Virus record (IMG/VR): IMGVR_UViG_3300045049_000316
Location: 1 to 27,331 of that record
Direction: 5' to 3' (one strand)
DNA from: a virus
Length of the DNA: 27,331 nt
In this document: in pieces, positions 236 through 17,724 of the stretch
How positions within the stretch are numbered: the first letter of the stretch is position 1
Layout of the letters: the number at the start of each line of letters is the position of its first letter
Program-made: the position numbers and the translations under genes
The notes under the pieces: model-generated
Told to the model about the DNA's origin: nothing
What the model saw: the letters and a program-made list of their open reading frames with translations, nothing else
Database searches by the model: none

Positions 236-523
236 GCTTGTTTCTACTGCGCCACAGGTGGGGACGCGCCTGATAGCGTCGAGGGCCTCCAAGGCGCACA
301 TTCAGGAAAAACATCTTCTGCCGTAAACATGTACAGACGCAGTTCCGCAACCTATGCTGTATGGACGTACAGGCCCGAGCACACCGAGCCCATGATAGCC
401 AGTGATGTCTTTCCGGGCCGCTGCTATCCGCTCACCGCTTGAGAAATGGGGGCGCTGTAGGTTGTATGAACCAACGGACGACTTTAAATGTAATCGTTTA
501 TCGTAACTGTTCGCGGGGTGAAA
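236..523 (+). ncRNA. Non-coding leader of the avcD-like gene; candidate AvcI-type RNA region
   Basis: From the tRNA fragment to the deaminase start there are about 435 nt with no gene that looks real; the only plus-strand reading frame (218-442) has implausible composition and no ribosome site. In the characterised AvcID systems the deaminase is preceded by a short RNA, AvcI, that inhibits it, so an AvcI-like RNA is expected in this position. Visible elements are a CTGT-N8-ACAG dyad at 357-372 and a small GGTT/AACC hairpin near 460-472. I cannot recognise AvcI by sequence, so this is a positional inference and the boundaries are arbitrary. Confidence 0.3.
357..372. promoter_or_regulatory. Possible LexA-like dyad CTGT-N8-ACAG
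   Basis: The core CTGT-ATGGACGT-ACAG matches the LexA half-sites exactly, but the flanks and the centre fit poorly (about 13 of 20 to the extended E. coli consensus). With eight fixed bases a chance match is expected roughly 0.4 times in a window of this size. It lies about 150 bp upstream of the deaminase gene, where a promoter for the leader could be. Confidence 0.3.
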
Positions 524-2116
524 ATGACGACAAGAAGACCAGGGGCCAGGGCAAGATCAAATTCGAAGCCGTCCGCAAGTGAAGCAGGCGGCGATGAGTT
601 AGCTGAAGAATCGCGACTGGTCCCGAAGGATCACCCCGAGCTGGTTTTCGGTCTGATCGGTCCTGTGGGCGTTAATTTGGATCCAGTAATATCCATTCTT
701 TCCAGAAACTTAAAAACGTTAAATTATCGAGCCAAAACTATAAGACTTAGCCATCAGATAGAAAAATTTTTGGGCTCAAACCATGGAGGCGAGCCCGAGG
801 ATGAGCGAATTATCAATTTGATGGATGAAGGGACGAGGATAAGAGTAACGAGCGAACGCGGGGATGCCGTAGCACTACTTGGCATCGCTGAAATATGGAG
901 AGTTCGAAACGAGGAGCTTAACGGCTCTTTCGAGGGCAACGCATACATCCTTAGATCCCTAAAACATCCGCACGAAATCGAAACACTTCGAAACGTATAT
1001 GGGAAAGGATTCTTTGTAATATCCGCGTACTCGCCGCGTGAAGTGCGCGTCAGTGCGCTTGCGGAAAAAATAAGCAGATCACAATTTGAACGAGATAATA
1101 ATGCGCGCGCAAAAGCTGAAAATATTATCGAAAGGGATGAATCGGAAGACAACATCAAGCTAGGCCAAGATGTAAAAGACGCATTTCCATTGGCGGACCT
1201 TTTCGTTGACAGCCGCAGCAAGGCATCCCTAGAAAATCAAATTGGTCGATTCTTGGAATTGCTGTTCGGCAATGTGTATCTCACACCCGCGCGCGACGAG
1301 CATGGGATGTATCTTGCGAGGTCAGCCGCGCTGCGATCTGCAGACCTGGGAAGACAGGTAGGGGCGGCGATATTGCGGCCCGAAGGAGACCTCATCGCAG
1401 TCGGGTGTAACGATGTCCCCAAGGCCGGCGGCGACCTTTACTGGCCTGGCGATAAAGGTGATGCACGCGATTTTCAGCAGGGCATAGACGCGACTGCGGA
1501 CGAAAAAACGCAGGTCCTCGGAGAGCTACTGAAGCGACTTCATGGTAATGAATTATTGTCACCAAACATCGCTGAAAGTGATTTAAAGGCACTTGTAAAC
1601 GGATTGATCTCGGGAGAAAAACTAAAAGATACTCGAATCATGAGCTTACTTGAATTTGGCAGGAGCGTTCACGCAGAAATGGCCGCATTGATGACGGCTG
1701 CGAGACTGGGCGTTTCCGTTCAGGGCGCAACGCTTTTCAGCACGACGTTTCCGTGCCATATGTGCGCTCGACACATCGTCGCCAGCGGGATTAAGCGCGT
1801 GATTTATATAGAGCCATACCCGAAAAGCAAGGCAAAGCAATTACATCAAGACTCGATTAGCGTCGACCCAGTGACCGAATCGCCCGAACACGTTAATTTT
1901 GAGCCATTTGTAGGAATATCCCCAAAGCAGTATCAAAGCATTTTTAATGCCCGCGAATCCAGAAAAGATTCCGACGGGAGAATTATTGACTGGAGAGCAA
2001 AATATGGTAAGCCACGATTCGCTAGATTTTTAAACACATACCACGACATTGAAACGATGATCGTTACAGACGAGATTCCCATTCTTGCAAAACGACTCGG
2101 AATTAATGTAGACTAA
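524..2116 (+). CDS. avcD: AvcD-like anti-phage dCTP/dCMP deaminase with N-terminal P-loop-like domain
   Basis: Proteins of this type deaminate deoxycytidine nucleotides and drain the dCTP pool during phage infection; in AvcID systems a small RNA holds the enzyme inactive. From ATG 524 it is 530 aa, the usual length of this family. Residues about 43-51 (GLIGPVGVN) resemble a degenerate P-loop that lacks the Walker lysine. The C-terminal half is a zinc cytidine/dCMP deaminase: His383 and catalytic Glu385 in HAEMAAL, and Cys411 and Cys414 in PCHMC. ATG 524 is chosen over GTG 518 because GGGG at 515-518 sits at Shine-Dalgarno distance from 524. The gene is visibly richer in A+T than the phage structural genes, a sign of separate origin. 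Assignment to the deaminase family is firm; naming it AvcD rests on architecture. Confidence 0.85.
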   Translation: MTTRRPGARARSNSKPSASEAGGDELAEESRLVPKDHPELVFGLIGPVGVNLDPVISILSRNLKTLNYRAKTIRLSHQIEKFLGSNHGGEPEDERIINLMDEGTRIRVTSERGDAVALLGIAEIWRVRNEELNGSFEGNAYILRSLKHPHEIETLRNVYGKGFFVISAYSPREVRVSALAEKISRSQFERDNNARAKAENIIERDESEDNIKLGQDVKDAFPLADLFVDSRSKASLENQIGRFLELLFGNVYLTPARDEHGMYLARSAALRSADLGRQVGAAILRPEGDLIAVGCNDVPKAGGDLYWPGDKGDARDFQQGIDATADEKTQVLGELLKRLHGNELLSPNIAESDLKALVNGLISGEKLKDTRIMSLLEFGRSVHAEMAALMTAARLGVSVQGATLFSTTFPCHMCARHIVASGIKRVIYIEPYPKSKAKQLHQDSISVDPVTESPEHVNFEPFVGISPKQYQSIFNARESRKDSDGRIIDWRAKYGKPRFARFLNTYHDIETMIVTDEIPILAKRLGINVD

Positions 2117-2845: not shown

Positions 2846-3073
2846 ATGCGTCATCCTGCCGCCCCCCAGCTTCAACAGTCCTCCGTCGATGTCGCCATGA
2901 TCAACATCGACCGCCTGAACGCCTTAGCCTGCCTGCTGGCTAGCGAAGATGTCGCTGCCGCCTTCTCCAAGCTATCTGTCCGCGACCAAGCCGCAATATT
3001 TGGCACTTTCGAAGATGGACTCGAGGAAGCTCGGGATGCCTTGGTGCGCGCGGCAGTTGGCTTCGAGCATTGA
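2846..3073 (+). CDS. Small hypothetical phage protein (75 aa)
   Basis: ATG 2846 is chosen over the more upstream in-frame start at 2699 because AAAGGAG lies at 2829-2835, at a proper distance, and because the upstream part is the structured leader. The product begins MRHPAAPQLQQ and is mostly helical and acidic toward the C-terminus (for example SVRDQAAIFGTFEDGLEEAR); it has no membrane segment or recognised motif. A structured leader directly before it suggests post-transcriptional control. I do not recognise the family; small early or regulatory phage proteins are often found in this setting. Confidence 0.6.
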   Translation: MRHPAAPQLQQSSVDVAMINIDRLNALACLLASEDVAAAFSKLSVRDQAAIFGTFEDGLEEARDALVRAAVGFEH

Positions 3074-3168
3074 ACCGAAGCCGGAGCACCGGATGCGCTC
3101 GAAGCCGGGCGGTGCGACCGGGGCCGGGGCCGGGGCCGGACAGAGCGTCGGTATCACTTGGCCGCTTC

Positions 3169-3200
3169 GGGAGCGTCATCGCCTTGGGGATAACGCTCCC
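3169..3200. terminator. 8-bp inverted repeat, weak terminator candidate after the 75-aa gene
   Basis: GGGAGCGT at 3169-3176 pairs with ACGCTCCC at 3193-3200. It lies between the 75-aa gene and the SOS box. It lacks a T-run, so the terminator call is weak. Confidence 0.25.
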
Positions 3201-3254
3201 TCGATGCGCCTGTCAGCGCGCGTCGGGGTGAGCTATTATTTCGAAGGAATGGCA

Positions 3255-3274
3255 TACTGTATGTATACACAGTA
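3255..3274. promoter_or_regulatory. LexA (SOS) box upstream of the ShosTA-like operon
   Basis: TACTGT-ATGTATAC-ACAGTA has perfect 6-bp half-sites and agrees with the E. coli LexA consensus (TACTGT, alternating AT, ACAGTA) at 18 of 20 positions, differing only at two central bases. Betaproteobacterial LexA recognises the same CTGT-N8-ACAG core. It ends 19 nt before ATG 3294, an ideal place to block the promoter of the DprA-like gene, so the pair is probably derepressed by DNA damage. Confidence 0.75.
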
Positions 3275-3293
3275 CCGAATCGACCCAGCGCAC

Positions 3294-4211
3294 ATGAGCA
3301 CACTATTTCAAGCCCCTACCGGATTGTTGTCTACCCCTCCGATCCAGCCGCTGCGAGAAATGGGCGCCTACGAGGCACTGTGGGAGTCGGACGCCGCGTC
3401 GTTCAAGACGATTGCCGAAACGTTCGGGCAGAACCCGTCCGCGACGCCATCGCAACTGGTCCCAGCGGAAACGATCGACGCCACGGTGCCAGAGGTTATG
3501 CGCCACCTCGACGCCGCGAAGATTTACGACTTCGGAGTGAGCATTCACGGCACTGCCGACTACCCCGATAAGCTGCGTGCGGCGCGGCATCCGATCGAAT
3601 TTTTCTACTATCGCGGTTGGCAGGACCTGGCGTTTGCGAGGCGCTCGGTCGCAGTGGTCGGCACACGAACCCCGTCCGACGCCGGCATCAAGCGTGCACG
3701 GAAGCTAGTCCGCAAGCTCGTGGAGTACGAGTTCACCGTTTTCTCTGGCTTGGCCGCAGGGATCGATACCGTTGCGCATACAACCGCAATCGAGTGCGGC
3801 GGACGGACGGTAGCGGTCATCGGGACTCCGATCACGTCGGCTTATCCACGCGAAAACCAGGCATTGCAAGAAGAGATCGCGCGCGACCATCTAGTCGTCA
3901 GCCAGGTACCGATCCTTCGCTATGCGCGTCAGACGTATCGAGGCAATCGATTGTTCTTCCCTGAACGCAACGCAACGATGTCAGCGCTCACCGACGCGAC
4001 GATCATCGTTGAAGCAGGCGAAACGTCCGGCAGCTTGACCCAGGCACGCGCAGCTCTTCAACAAGGACGAAAACTGTTCATTTTGGACAGTTGCTTCACC
4101 AACCCCGCTCTGACGTGGCCCGCACGCCTCGCTCTGCAGGGTGCCATTCGCGTGGTCGACTTCGACGATATATTGAAGCACCTCGAACACGATGGCCCTA
4201 CTTCAAATTGA
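3294..4211 (+). CDS. shosA: DprA/Smf-like SLOG-domain protein, ShosA-like (antitoxin component)
   Basis: The 305-aa product has the DprA Rossmann core: SVAVVGTRTPSDAG at about 118-131, FSGLAAGIDTVAH at 150-162, GGRTVAVIGTPITSAYPREN at 169-188, FFPERNATMSAL at 221-232, and VEAGETSGSLTQARAALQQGR at about 239-259. In ShosTA systems the DprA-like protein neutralises the partner phosphoribosyltransferase, and the pair defends against phage. The frame stays open upstream to 2949, but ATG 3294 is chosen because the upstream part crosses the SOS box and a low-complexity GGGGCC repeat; ATG 3261 is an alternative. The last 20 nt overlap the next gene, indicating translational coupling. A housekeeping DprA is unlikely, given the partner gene and the location in a prophage. 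Confidence 0.8.
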   Translation: MSTLFQAPTGLLSTPPIQPLREMGAYEALWESDAASFKTIAETFGQNPSATPSQLVPAETIDATVPEVMRHLDAAKIYDFGVSIHGTADYPDKLRAARHPIEFFYYRGWQDLAFARRSVAVVGTRTPSDAGIKRARKLVRKLVEYEFTVFSGLAAGIDTVAHTTAIECGGRTVAVIGTPITSAYPRENQALQEEIARDHLVVSQVPILRYARQTYRGNRLFFPERNATMSALTDATIIVEAGETSGSLTQARAALQQGRKLFILDSCFTNPALTWPARLALQGAIRVVDFDDILKHLEHDGPTSN

Positions 4212-4866
4212 TGCAACGACTCGGGGCGACCACGTCTATCTACGCCCCGACGACTACTGCCTCTACATCGGGGACTACACCGCTCGCGGCGGCTTCGGCT
4301 GCAGCCCGATCAACAATCTCGTTCTCAATTTCAAGAAGCCCGTATCGCGCCGCGGTTTGGCCGAGTACGTTTATAAGGAGCGGGCCATCGAAAGAGTCGG
4401 CCGCTTTTTCCGAGACTCATTTTCCTCCGACGCATTTCGGCAGGTAACCTTCGTCCCGATTCCCCCGTCGAAGGCCAGGCACCACCCCGAGCATGACGAC
4501 CGCGTCATGCGCTCGCTCTCACATATGGCCGGCTTGGTCCGGGCTGAATTGAACGTGGTCGCCGACATCCGCGAAATCGTCGTGCAACGAGATAGCTACG
4601 ATCCCTCGCACATGGCCAATGCCGGGGCTCGCATGCATGCGGACGACCTCCTACCGCTTTACATGATCGACGACGCCGTCGCGCAGCAGGCGCCAGCGCG
4701 AATCCTCGTTGTGGATGACGTTCTGACGACAGGTAGCCATTTCGTCGCCATGAAAACCGTGCTCACGAACCGATTCCCTGGCGCTTGGATCGGAGGACTG
4801 TTCGTCGCACGACGGCGGCCATCGGACGACGCGGCGATTGCGCCTCGGACATTGGAGAACCCGTAA
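4192..4866 (+). CDS. shosT: ComF-type phosphoribosyltransferase, ShosT-like (toxin component)
   Basis: The 224-aa product carries the PRPP-binding motif of type I phosphoribosyltransferases at about 171-183 (ILVVDDVLTTGSH), with the acidic DD pair and TTG loop intact, and the FVPIPPSKARHHPE region at about 88-100 seen in ComF-like proteins. In ShosTA the phosphoribosyltransferase is the toxic effector, acting on nucleotide metabolism and restrained by the DprA partner. The start overlaps the end of the DprA-like gene by 20 nt; no separate ribosome site is obvious. Catalytic motifs look complete, so the toxin should be active. No clear terminator follows the stop codon. Confidence 0.8.
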   Translation: MALLQIDATTRGDHVYLRPDDYCLYIGDYTARGGFGCSPINNLVLNFKKPVSRRGLAEYVYKERAIERVGRFFRDSFSSDAFRQVTFVPIPPSKARHHPEHDDRVMRSLSHMAGLVRAELNVVADIREIVVQRDSYDPSHMANAGARMHADDLLPLYMIDDAVAQQAPARILVVDDVLTTGSHFVAMKTVLTNRFPGAWIGGLFVARRRPSDDAAIAPRTLENP

Positions 4867-15040: not shown

Positions 15041-15096
15041 CGCGAGCGCGGTGTAGGATAGCGCCCCATTCCCTTAAAAGCGGAGGAGATCGATCG

Positions 15097-15831
15097 ATGG
15101 CCTCGGTCAAAATCGACTTGGGTTTCGGTGAACAAGCCATTCTCTCCGAGCGTGCAGGATCGGAAGCGCTGACGCCTAAGCACCAACGAGACGCGGAAGA
15201 ATTCTTGCGGCGCTGGCCACGGATTCGTTCCATTCAGCAGGAACGCAGCTACCTCCAGCAGCTCGGGCTACACGTTGGTTTCTGCCCGCCTGGCGCGAAT
15301 CCCAGCGACACAAGTGCCTTGCTACGATCAGCCGTGAAAAGCGGTAGGATCAAGGTGGCGATTGAGCGCGCTGCCGCAACTACAGGAGGGGGCGTGGTTG
15401 GCTCTGGCCCATCGACGCGTCCATATCCACTCGAAATGCGGCAGAAGGCCGCTCGGGTAGCACCGACTCCTAAGTCCTACTCCTACGATTGGCCGCAAAG
15501 ATACGATGACGTCAGCGCGAACGATCTGATCGCCTACCTTGAGGATTTTATCGGCCGCACTTCGACGACCACCGCAGCCGCCGACGCCGATCCGACGACG
15601 CCTCTCGGTGATGCACAGCCGTTCGAGTACAGCGAGGACTCCCCACTGAAAGAGGCGGAGGAAGTGGCTGCACGCGGTGTGAGCGAGGAAGATGAAGCCG
15701 AGTGCTACGCCCAATATGAACGAGACATGGACGAATGCAACGCCTATAAGTTAGCTATGGGTGGAGCTCGGTTCATGGAATCCTGTTCCCAACGCGCTTT
15801 CATGAATTATCAACAATGCAGAGGTTATTGA
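15097..15831 (+). CDS. Unknown cargo protein (244 aa) with C-terminal twin C-X10-C motif
   Basis: A very strong ribosome site (GGAGGAG at 15082-15088) precedes ATG 15097. The N-terminal ~90 residues are mixed helix/strand (EEFLRRWPRIRSIQQERSYL, SALLRSAVKSGRIKVAIER). A Gly/Pro/Thr-rich linker and a low-complexity acidic stretch (about 150-195) follow. The C-terminal ~45 residues have four cysteines spaced C-X10-C-X15-C-X10-C (ECYAQYERDMDEC, SCSQRAFMNYQQC), as in a helical hairpin closed by two disulfides. No signal peptide or membrane segment is seen. I do not recognise the family. The modular build, with a short overlapping partner gene, recalls effector-immunity or toxin-antitoxin pairs, but that is inference. 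Confidence 0.75.
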   Translation: MASVKIDLGFGEQAILSERAGSEALTPKHQRDAEEFLRRWPRIRSIQQERSYLQQLGLHVGFCPPGANPSDTSALLRSAVKSGRIKVAIERAAATTGGGVVGSGPSTRPYPLEMRQKAARVAPTPKSYSYDWPQRYDDVSANDLIAYLEDFIGRTSTTTAAADADPTTPLGDAQPFEYSEDSPLKEAEEVAARGVSEEDEAECYAQYERDMDECNAYKLAMGGARFMESCSQRAFMNYQQCRGY

Positions 15832-16091
15832 TGGCTGAACATCCCGAAAGAAAGTGTGTCGTTGTGATGTGGTCCGAGGAAAAGCAAGCTCTGATCTCTT
15901 ACACCCTAGAGGTAGACCGGGTCATCGCTGTCACGCAGCGTCTTTTCCCGTTGGAGCTTCCTCTCGCGGACTACGGCAACAACCTCGACGACGAATTCGC
16001 GCGGCGGTTTGGCGGCGCCACCTTGAATCTGCTGGCGCTGTCGAATCCGGAGTTGAAGCCACATTTAAAGATCACGCCTGCAGAAGATTGA
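15831..16091 (+). CDS. Unknown small partner protein (86 aa), possible immunity/antitoxin
   Basis: ATG 15831 overlaps the stop of the preceding gene (TGATG), so the two are translationally coupled. The product is acidic and globular-looking (starts MAEHPERKCVVVMWSEEKQA; later LPLADYGNNLDDEFARRFGG), with no membrane segment. A strong terminator follows 30 nt after its stop, so the transcription unit is just these two genes. Size, acidity and overlap suit an immunity or antitoxin protein. Family not recognised. Confidence 0.75.
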   Translation: MAEHPERKCVVVMWSEEKQALISYTLEVDRVIAVTQRLFPLELPLADYGNNLDDEFARRFGGATLNLLALSNPELKPHLKITPAED

Positions 16092-16121
16092 GCAGGAAGT
16101 AGCCGTCCGAGCTTGTGGGAG

Positions 16122-16143
16122 AACCGCCTTATGGCGGTTTTTT
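16122..16143 (+). terminator. Rho-independent terminator of the two-gene cargo operon
   Basis: AACCGCC at 16122-16128 pairs with GGCGGTT at 16133-16139 around TTAT, followed by a run of six T (16138-16143). It closes the 15097-16091 unit and separates it from the next gene. Confidence 0.88.
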
Positions 16144-16229
16144 CAGTCGTATCAAAATCATCAGAAAACCAGGCAACTCATCGCGACCAACCCTCAGAGA
16201 ACGCACCACCCAACTACAAGATAACAATC

Positions 16230-16956: not shown

Positions 16957-17724
16957 TCAAGCGCACTGCTCTGCCTGCTTATCAGCGCAACGTAGCCGCT
17001 CCGTGGCAACACGGTAATACACTTCGTTTGCCTCACACCCCGTCCAGTCCAACCCAGCCTCTTTCGCCGCGACGAGAAACGTGCCCGACCCTGCGAACGG
17101 ATCACAAACTACCCCGCCCTTCGGCGCGAGACGCACGACCTCGTGGGCCAACTCGAGTGGCTTTTCCGTTAGGTGTCTTTTGGGCAGTTTGAGCGCGCTG
17201 GGGAAGACCCCGGGCAAGTAGACGTCACTGCCGCGTATCGCGCCTTTGCTCGCCCAAACGATGAATTCGGCTTGTTGCTTGAATCCACCTCGACGCGGCC
17301 TCGCGCGGCTCATCGTCTTGTCCCACACGGCGATCCCGCGATGAATAAAGCCCGCCGCCTGTACAACATCCGTCAGCGCCGGCAACTGGCGCCAATCGAT
17401 GAAGCTAACCACAAGGCACCCCGGCTTCAATGCACGGTACGCCGCGGAAAGCCACGCGTGGCACCAAAACGTCCATGATCGCTGGTCCATGTTGTCCGAT
17501 CCGAAGTCCTCGTATGTCGTTTTGGTTCCGCTGGTGATGTACTTCTGCGTGGTGCTTTGCGCACGCGCCGCAGCATGCAGCCCGCCTGACGAGTACGGCG
17601 GGTCTGTGAAAAACATGTCGATGGACTCGCTCGGCAAGCGCCGCAAGAACTGAAGTGCATCCTCTCGATGCAAGCGATTGAGAAGCGGCGCGATATCGCC
17701 CGTCCGATGGTTGTCGTTCGTCAT
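16957..17724 (-). CDS. DNA methyltransferase (N6-adenine or N4-cytosine, beta class)
   Basis: The 255-aa enzyme starts MTNDNHRTGDIAPLLNRLHR. Motif IV DPPY is at 41-44 (FFTDPPYSSGG) and the AdoMet-binding motif FAGSG follows at 210-214 (DPFAGSGTFLVAA); this order, IV before I, defines the beta class (DpnA/CcrM-like). DPPY favours adenine or exocyclic cytosine amino methylation. No restriction gene adjoins, so it is an orphan methyltransferase that could protect phage DNA from host restriction. It is opposite to the tail operon, between the S-V cargo genes and V. The start is chosen at 17724; the long upstream extension in the same frame (to 17961) overlaps V and is arginine-rich, with no methyltransferase motif. 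Confidence 0.88.
   Translation of the reverse strand: MTNDNHRTGDIAPLLNRLHREDALQFLRRLPSESIDMFFTDPPYSSGGLHAAARAQSTTQKYITSGTKTTYEDFGSDNMDQRSWTFWCHAWLSAAYRALKPGCLVVSFIDWRQLPALTDVVQAAGFIHRGIAVWDKTMSRARPRRGGFKQQAEFIVWASKGAIRGSDVYLPGVFPSALKLPKRHLTEKPLELAHEVVRLAPKGGVVCDPFAGSGTFLVAAKEAGLDWTGCEANEVYYRVATERLRCADKQAEQCA

Follow-up and report, generated by a model that had tools for sequence, protein, structure and literature searches.

What is a pair of small genes doing in the middle of a phage tail operon? The question is raised by a virus record from IMG/VR, 27,331 bases long, the whole of which we refer to as the window. Its gene order is P2-like, and it is the genome of a P2-like virus of Burkholderia-type bacteria. 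An initial annotation, made from the letters of this DNA, described the pair as a self-contained cargo operon between tail genes S and V and offered three functions for it: an undescribed toxin and immunity pair, an anti-phage system, or an effector carried by the virion. Here we follow the pair through its relatives and weigh these possibilities.

Two functional genes inside the tail operon

The large gene, P0001 (15097-15831, + strand), encodes a predicted polymorphic toxin of 244 aa with a pI of 5.0; the small gene, P0002 (15831-16091, +), encodes its predicted cognate immunity protein of 86 aa, which at pI 4.9 is as acidic as the initial annotation had it. The two open reading frames overlap as TGATG. 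A Shine-Dalgarno sequence GGAGGAG, read directly at 15082-15088 (+), precedes the first ATG of P0001, and an intrinsic terminator (16116-16145, +) follows P0002: a 13-bp hairpin ending in a T-run, with a folding z-score of -3.7 against shuffled sequences. The strong ribosome site, the coupled gene pair and the terminator, which we rate as good, are thus all borne out. The description of the operon as self-contained relies on the ribosome site and the terminator: a search upstream of P0001 found no sigma-70-like promoter. The T-run of the terminator is missing in L002, a related phage from IMG/VR. Since no sigma-70-type promoter was found, the pair may also be transcribed together with the tail operon. 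Its placement inside that operon is right, as judged by the family matches of the surrounding genes: gene S belongs to PF05069 and gene R to PF06891 (Pfam), and gpV matches a baseplate protein (PHROG).

Both P0001 and P0002 are real, functional genes under purifying selection. In a comparison of the window with L002, pN/pS is 0.035 for the C-terminal module of P0001 and 0.086 for P0002, against 0.243 for tail gene S, which is thus less well conserved than either; the value for the whole of P0001 is 0.28.

We compared both proteins, and a third protein encoded downstream of them (P0003), with Pfam, PHROGs, NCBIfam and PADLOC, and found nothing above cut-off. The profile searches that the initial annotation had suggested as a check therefore place neither member of the pair in a curated library and give no match to a virion structural protein. 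No relative of P0001 or P0002 was found in the phage collection either. The putative toxin module, its immunity family and the N-terminal marker domain described below are new in the sense that all three are absent from the libraries searched. The literature was searched narrowly, and an earlier description of any of them under another name may exist; the kind of system, polymorphic toxin with immunity protein, is already known. The idea of a similar four-cysteine motif beside Tox-REase-5 domains was dropped, as none of 26 such loci had a matching pattern.

The C-terminal module of P0001 is exchangeable and keeps its partner

Comparison with relatives divides P0001 into an N-terminal domain, a linker and an exchangeable module, in line with the modular build proposed initially. 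The constant N-terminal marker domain (aa 1-95; 15097-15381, +) is shared by at least four different C-termini. The conserved linker TPLGDAQPFEY... (aa 168-191; 15598-15669, +) is the junction at which modules are exchanged, and it precedes unrelated C-termini in L061-L066 and L131-L138. The exchangeable C-terminal module (aa 192-244 plus stop; 15670-15831, +) is the putative toxin, a predicted Cys4 helical hairpin, with a GC content of 0.49 vs 0.59 for the N-terminal domain. Searches used one profile each for the module (A1), the small protein (A4) and P0001 residues 1-95 (A5).

The four cysteines of the module, C203, C214, C230 and C241, are spaced exactly as the symmetric C-X10-C-X15-C-X10-C motif that had been noted. 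This pattern occurred in 0 of 20,000 shuffles of P0001; far better evidence for the motif is its conservation, the four cysteines being kept in 54 distinct homologous modules.

Translated searches lead to Burkholderiaceae, where relatives lie on contigs as well as on plasmids and chromosomes. P0001 is matched over its whole length in L002 (67% identity) and pBVIE05 (39%), and most relatives match its last ~75 residues only. The last ~53 residues constitute the module that is found on several types of carrier: window-like N-terminal domains (L002, L010, L082-L085), PAAR proteins (L009 and L080, PF05488 above cut-off), RHS proteins (L086, and L013, whose plasmid-encoded protein is annotated DUF6531) and other N-terminal domains (L004, L005, L076). 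There are also orphan cassettes, in which a module with almost nothing before it is accompanied by the partner gene (L006, L007). In the family to which Paraburkholderia oxyphila (G001) belongs, 86 of 398 genomes had a match to profile A1, often more than one; in a class-wide sample of 369 genomes the reference genome G001 itself was the only match. At one locus, in Trinickia symbiotica (L003, 6001-6566), the large gene apparently has a break that separates the module from the N-terminal domain, and the immunity gene is intact.

Module and partner are closely tied. Where the four-cysteine end is intact, a relative of P0002 lies directly downstream in every one of the 54 distinct loci, vs 0 of 7 where the protein shares only the linker and has another C-terminal end. 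Distances between modules correlate with distances between partners (Mantel r 0.66, P 0.0002; best of 5,000 permutations 0.16), and the correlation is still 0.61 after N-terminal similarity has been regressed out. A single 21.7-kb contig (L009 and L081) encodes two PAAR proteins that are 92% identical up to the linker and only 54% identical in the module, with partners 31% identical, a difference that likely reflects a recent cassette exchange. The window and L009 present the reverse picture: their N-termini are unrelated, and the modules and partners are 75% and 85% identical, respectively. These contrasts in identity indicate that module and partner move as one cassette.

In polymorphic toxin systems generally, a C-terminus that can be swapped and has its own partner gene downstream marks a toxin with its immunity protein (PMC3482391). 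Module swapping, the invariant downstream partner, the orphan cassettes and the variability of the genomic slot (see below) leave us with little doubt that the pair is a polymorphic toxin-immunity cassette, and they support, at the level of the family, the undescribed toxin and immunity pair in a cargo slot of the initial annotation. It is also highly probable that toxicity resides in the C-terminal module and that P0002 confers immunity to it.

The N-terminal domain is joined to several C-termini

Profile A5 was found in 20 of the 398 family genomes, and judging by the relatives found, the marker domain appears to be restricted to Burkholderiaceae. Through the same linker (PLGDAQPFEY and variants) it is joined to at least four kinds of C-terminus, each with a partner: the four-cysteine module, paired with a P0002 relative; an AAKMLGYD...HDNGDVEFNG module, paired with a DUF4279 protein; a TWYTNPGSGQMRL...DFDHDHGQGIPHAHNW module with a partner of ~147 aa; and a CDIIKAECKG...FPGQYLN module with a partner of ~80 aa. 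The second partner passes the DUF4279 cut-off in L066 and narrowly misses it in L131; DUF4279 is listed as probably conferring immunity to a type VI Rhs toxin (PMC13304343). The three modules other than ours (L127, L132, L138 and relatives) match no Pfam toxin family above cut-off. For the A5 domain itself, hhalign indicates a distant relationship with a larger group of N-terminal domains (probability 86%, E 5e-6).

These other C-termini bear on a different division of labour, in which the module is a loading or partner-binding tag, P0002 a chaperone or adaptor, and any toxicity resides elsewhere. The very small size of the module, its lack of an enzyme-like match and the fact that P0002 falls in no recognisable immunity family would suit such an arrangement. 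We nevertheless consider it improbable: the other C-termini at the same junction have partners of their own, one of them from a predicted immunity family (DUF4279), the module and its partner occur together as orphan cassettes, and RHS and PAAR carriers leave nothing else variable.

The genomic context of the A5 domain speaks to the virion effector of the initial annotation. Here P0001 would travel on the tail or head of the phage and be injected along with its DNA, with P0002 protecting the lysogen; the genes do lie inside a late tail operon, L002 has a protein of the same N-terminal type in the corresponding slot, and the MuF polymorphic toxins are evidence that modules of this sort can be carried by temperate phages (PMC5576092). 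However, 19 of the 20 A5 neighbourhoods are without genes of the window phage beyond the cassette, in a test that used the genes of the window phage only; the sole exception, L167, has a terminase and a portal gene of the window phage type. As far as this test reaches, it argues that the A5 domain is not a structural part of the window phage, and a domain that is not phage-specific in turn argues against a virion protein. P0001 also has no MuF or other structural domain (Pfam, PHROG), and in other phages the cassette occupies a different slot (L167 and L080, the latter with a PAAR protein as carrier). We find the virion effector unsupported and give it only a small chance.

The S-V slot is variable

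The view of the S-V gap as a cargo slot in the tail operon agrees with what related phages hold there. The slot is empty in FLC5, where S and V are 84 bp apart, and in KL3 (PMC3091744) it contains a methyltransferase only (gp28); these two P2-like Burkholderia phages share the tail gene order of the window and lack the toxin-immunity pair between S and V. L002 has the pair, then a membrane protein of the P0003 type and then two OLD-like genes, the first AAA (AAA_15) and the second TOPRIM (8250-10128 of L002), which replace the methyltransferase. In L080 and L167, relatives of the window phage, the cassette is located beside portal gene Q instead of between S and V, carried by a PAAR protein in L080 and by an A5 domain, as in the window, in L167.

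Outside the pair, the slot of the window contains two more genes. P0003 (16230-16760, +) is a small membrane/coiled-coil protein of 176 aa, with hydrophobic N-terminal segments and a coiled coil, encoded at a low GC content of 0.475; a 67% identical copy occupies the same place in L002, and no relatives beyond L002 were found in viral contigs and phages. By its look only, it is a candidate superinfection-exclusion protein. On the opposite strand, an N6/N4 DNA methyltransferase gene (16957-17724, -; PF01555) encodes a protein 64% identical to KL3 gp28.

Elsewhere in the window, a gene at 518-2116 (+) encodes a 532-aa protein with a deoxycytidylate deaminase domain that matches the PADLOC model dCTPase (anti-phage dCTP deaminase) at 1.5e-162. 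A DprA-like and phosphoribosyltransferase-like gene pair (2949-4211 and 4192-4866, +) matches ShosA (1e-96) and ShosT (6e-39), respectively; this ShosTA-matching pair, a known defence/toxin-antitoxin system, sits between the deaminase gene and the portal gene.

The anti-phage system of the initial annotation would be a toxin-antitoxin or abortive-infection module, with protection of the lysogen or stabilisation of the prophage as its role. It is suggested by company only, namely these known defence genes near the portal gene and the OLD-like AAA/TOPRIM pair in the slot of L002, and it is unlikely: P0001, P0002 and P0003 have no PADLOC match (systems unlisted in PADLOC would escape), and exchange of C-termini among PAAR/RHS carriers together with a toxin-first gene order is typical of secreted polymorphic toxins, not of intracellular toxin-antitoxin systems (PMC3482391).

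Predicted structures and proposed mechanism

Structure prediction, the other check suggested at the outset, was carried out on the two proteins singly. The AlphaFold2 model of P0001 is of low confidence as a whole (whole-chain pLDDT 62), and we use only its local picture. The N-terminal domain has the predicted fold bb-aaa-b (pLDDT about 75), residues 93-194, the linker included, are largely disordered, and the C-terminus forms a two-helix hairpin (197-221/223-242, pLDDT about 80). Because the spacing of the cysteines is symmetric about the turn, C203 should probably face C241, and C214 should face C230, with two disulfides as the natural reading. The CHCH (twin CX9C) fold likewise consists of two antiparallel helices with two symmetric cysteines each; the resemblance is an analogy only, the module having CX10C spacing and no sequence or significant fold match to it.

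P0002 is modelled with higher confidence (pLDDT 87) as a beta-hairpin plus helices (bb-aaaa), for which neither Foldseek nor VIA-align finds a significant PDB fold. A weak profile match to YhcO of the barstar family (E 0.1) is accompanied by a different predicted topology. Foldseek finds no significant PDB fold for P0001 either, although the model is too weak for a strong statement, and neither protein has a convincing sequence match in the PDB. The P0002 sequence contains no hydrophobic leader, and no export signal is visible in any immunity relative of the alignment.

We propose the following mechanism for a secreted toxin with cognate immunity. The N-terminal marker domain would recruit P0001 to an export machine, most likely the type VI secretion system of the host. 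The disordered linker would join this domain to the ~53-residue C-terminal module, the two helices of which are probably locked by C203-C241 and C214-C230 and which would be the toxic part. P0002 would bind and neutralise the module in the cytoplasm of the lysogen, where we place this step because P0002 lacks an export signal; from the immunity relatives, which likewise have none visible, we infer that the target of the toxin may be cytoplasmic. The lysogen would then inhibit neighbouring cells in which the prophage or the immunity gene is missing. Two points sit uneasily with this mechanism: at ~53 residues the module is short by the standards of toxins, with no match to a known enzyme or PDB fold, and cysteines of the disulfide type are an awkward match for an immunity protein without an export signal.

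Likely delivery by type VI secretion

We lean towards delivery by type VI secretion because PAAR and RHS proteins carry this module too and because the module co-occurs with TssC. This component of the type VI system is present in 84 of 86 module-bearing genomes vs 167 of 312 others, a contrast that genome size may inflate. P0001 has no PAAR, VgrG, Hcp or RHS part (Pfam, NCBIfam), and vgrG, the one gene looked for, lies within 10 kb of 0 of 45 module genes in 15 genomes. Cargo effectors need no PAAR, VgrG, Hcp or RHS part of their own. RIX effectors are orphan genes and likewise not beside vgrG (PMC10435454). As a whole, the observations are probably best explained by a prophage-carried (moron) polymorphic toxin with its immunity protein, most likely acting as a type VI cargo effector of the lysogen.

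Discussion

The cassette resembles the PAAR, RHS and CDI polymorphic toxins (PMC3482391) in its constant N-terminal part, exchangeable C-terminus and downstream immunity gene, in the existence of orphan cassettes and in its multiple copies. It differs from the listed toxins in its ~53-aa Cys4 hairpin and its immunity family, neither of which matches a Pfam, NCBIfam, PHROG or PADLOC model.

A second likeness is to the RIX, MIX, FIX, PIX and WHIX cargo effectors (PMC10435454, PMC6688995, PMC12135965), which have a short N-terminal domain without PAAR and many C-terminal toxins. Window-type genes are orphan and away from vgrG as in these classes, and their distribution is restricted as in RIX, a class marked by an arginine-rich N-terminal region of 55 aa and reported only from Vibrionaceae and Moritellaceae (PMC10435454). 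A5, a predicted secretion domain, differs from these marker domains in sequence and has its home in Burkholderiaceae; the WHxxxH motif of the WHIX class (PMC12135965) is absent from P0001. MuF toxins (PMC5576092) also pair a phage-borne toxin gene with a small putative immunity gene behind it, but P0001 has no MuF domain, lies outside the packaging module and has N-terminal relatives mostly outside phages of the window type.

More tentatively, with the odds somewhat against so specific a proposal, the module may be a minimal toxin of a new class, with binding and not catalysis as its mode of action, and A5 may define a new Burkholderiaceae-specific class of type VI cargo, spread by prophages, plasmids and chromosomal cassettes. 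The authors of the RIX study suggested that such family-specific domains exist elsewhere (PMC10435454), and the marker domain described here allows a direct test of family-specific type VI secretion domains beyond the RIX domain of vibrios.

For the Burkholderiaceae, the cassette would enlarge the arsenal by an undescribed toxin module with its immunity family and by a marker domain confined to these bacteria, about a fifth of whose sampled genomes match the module profile. It would also provide a concrete, if predicted, case of a temperate phage arming its host against other bacteria from inside the tail operon.
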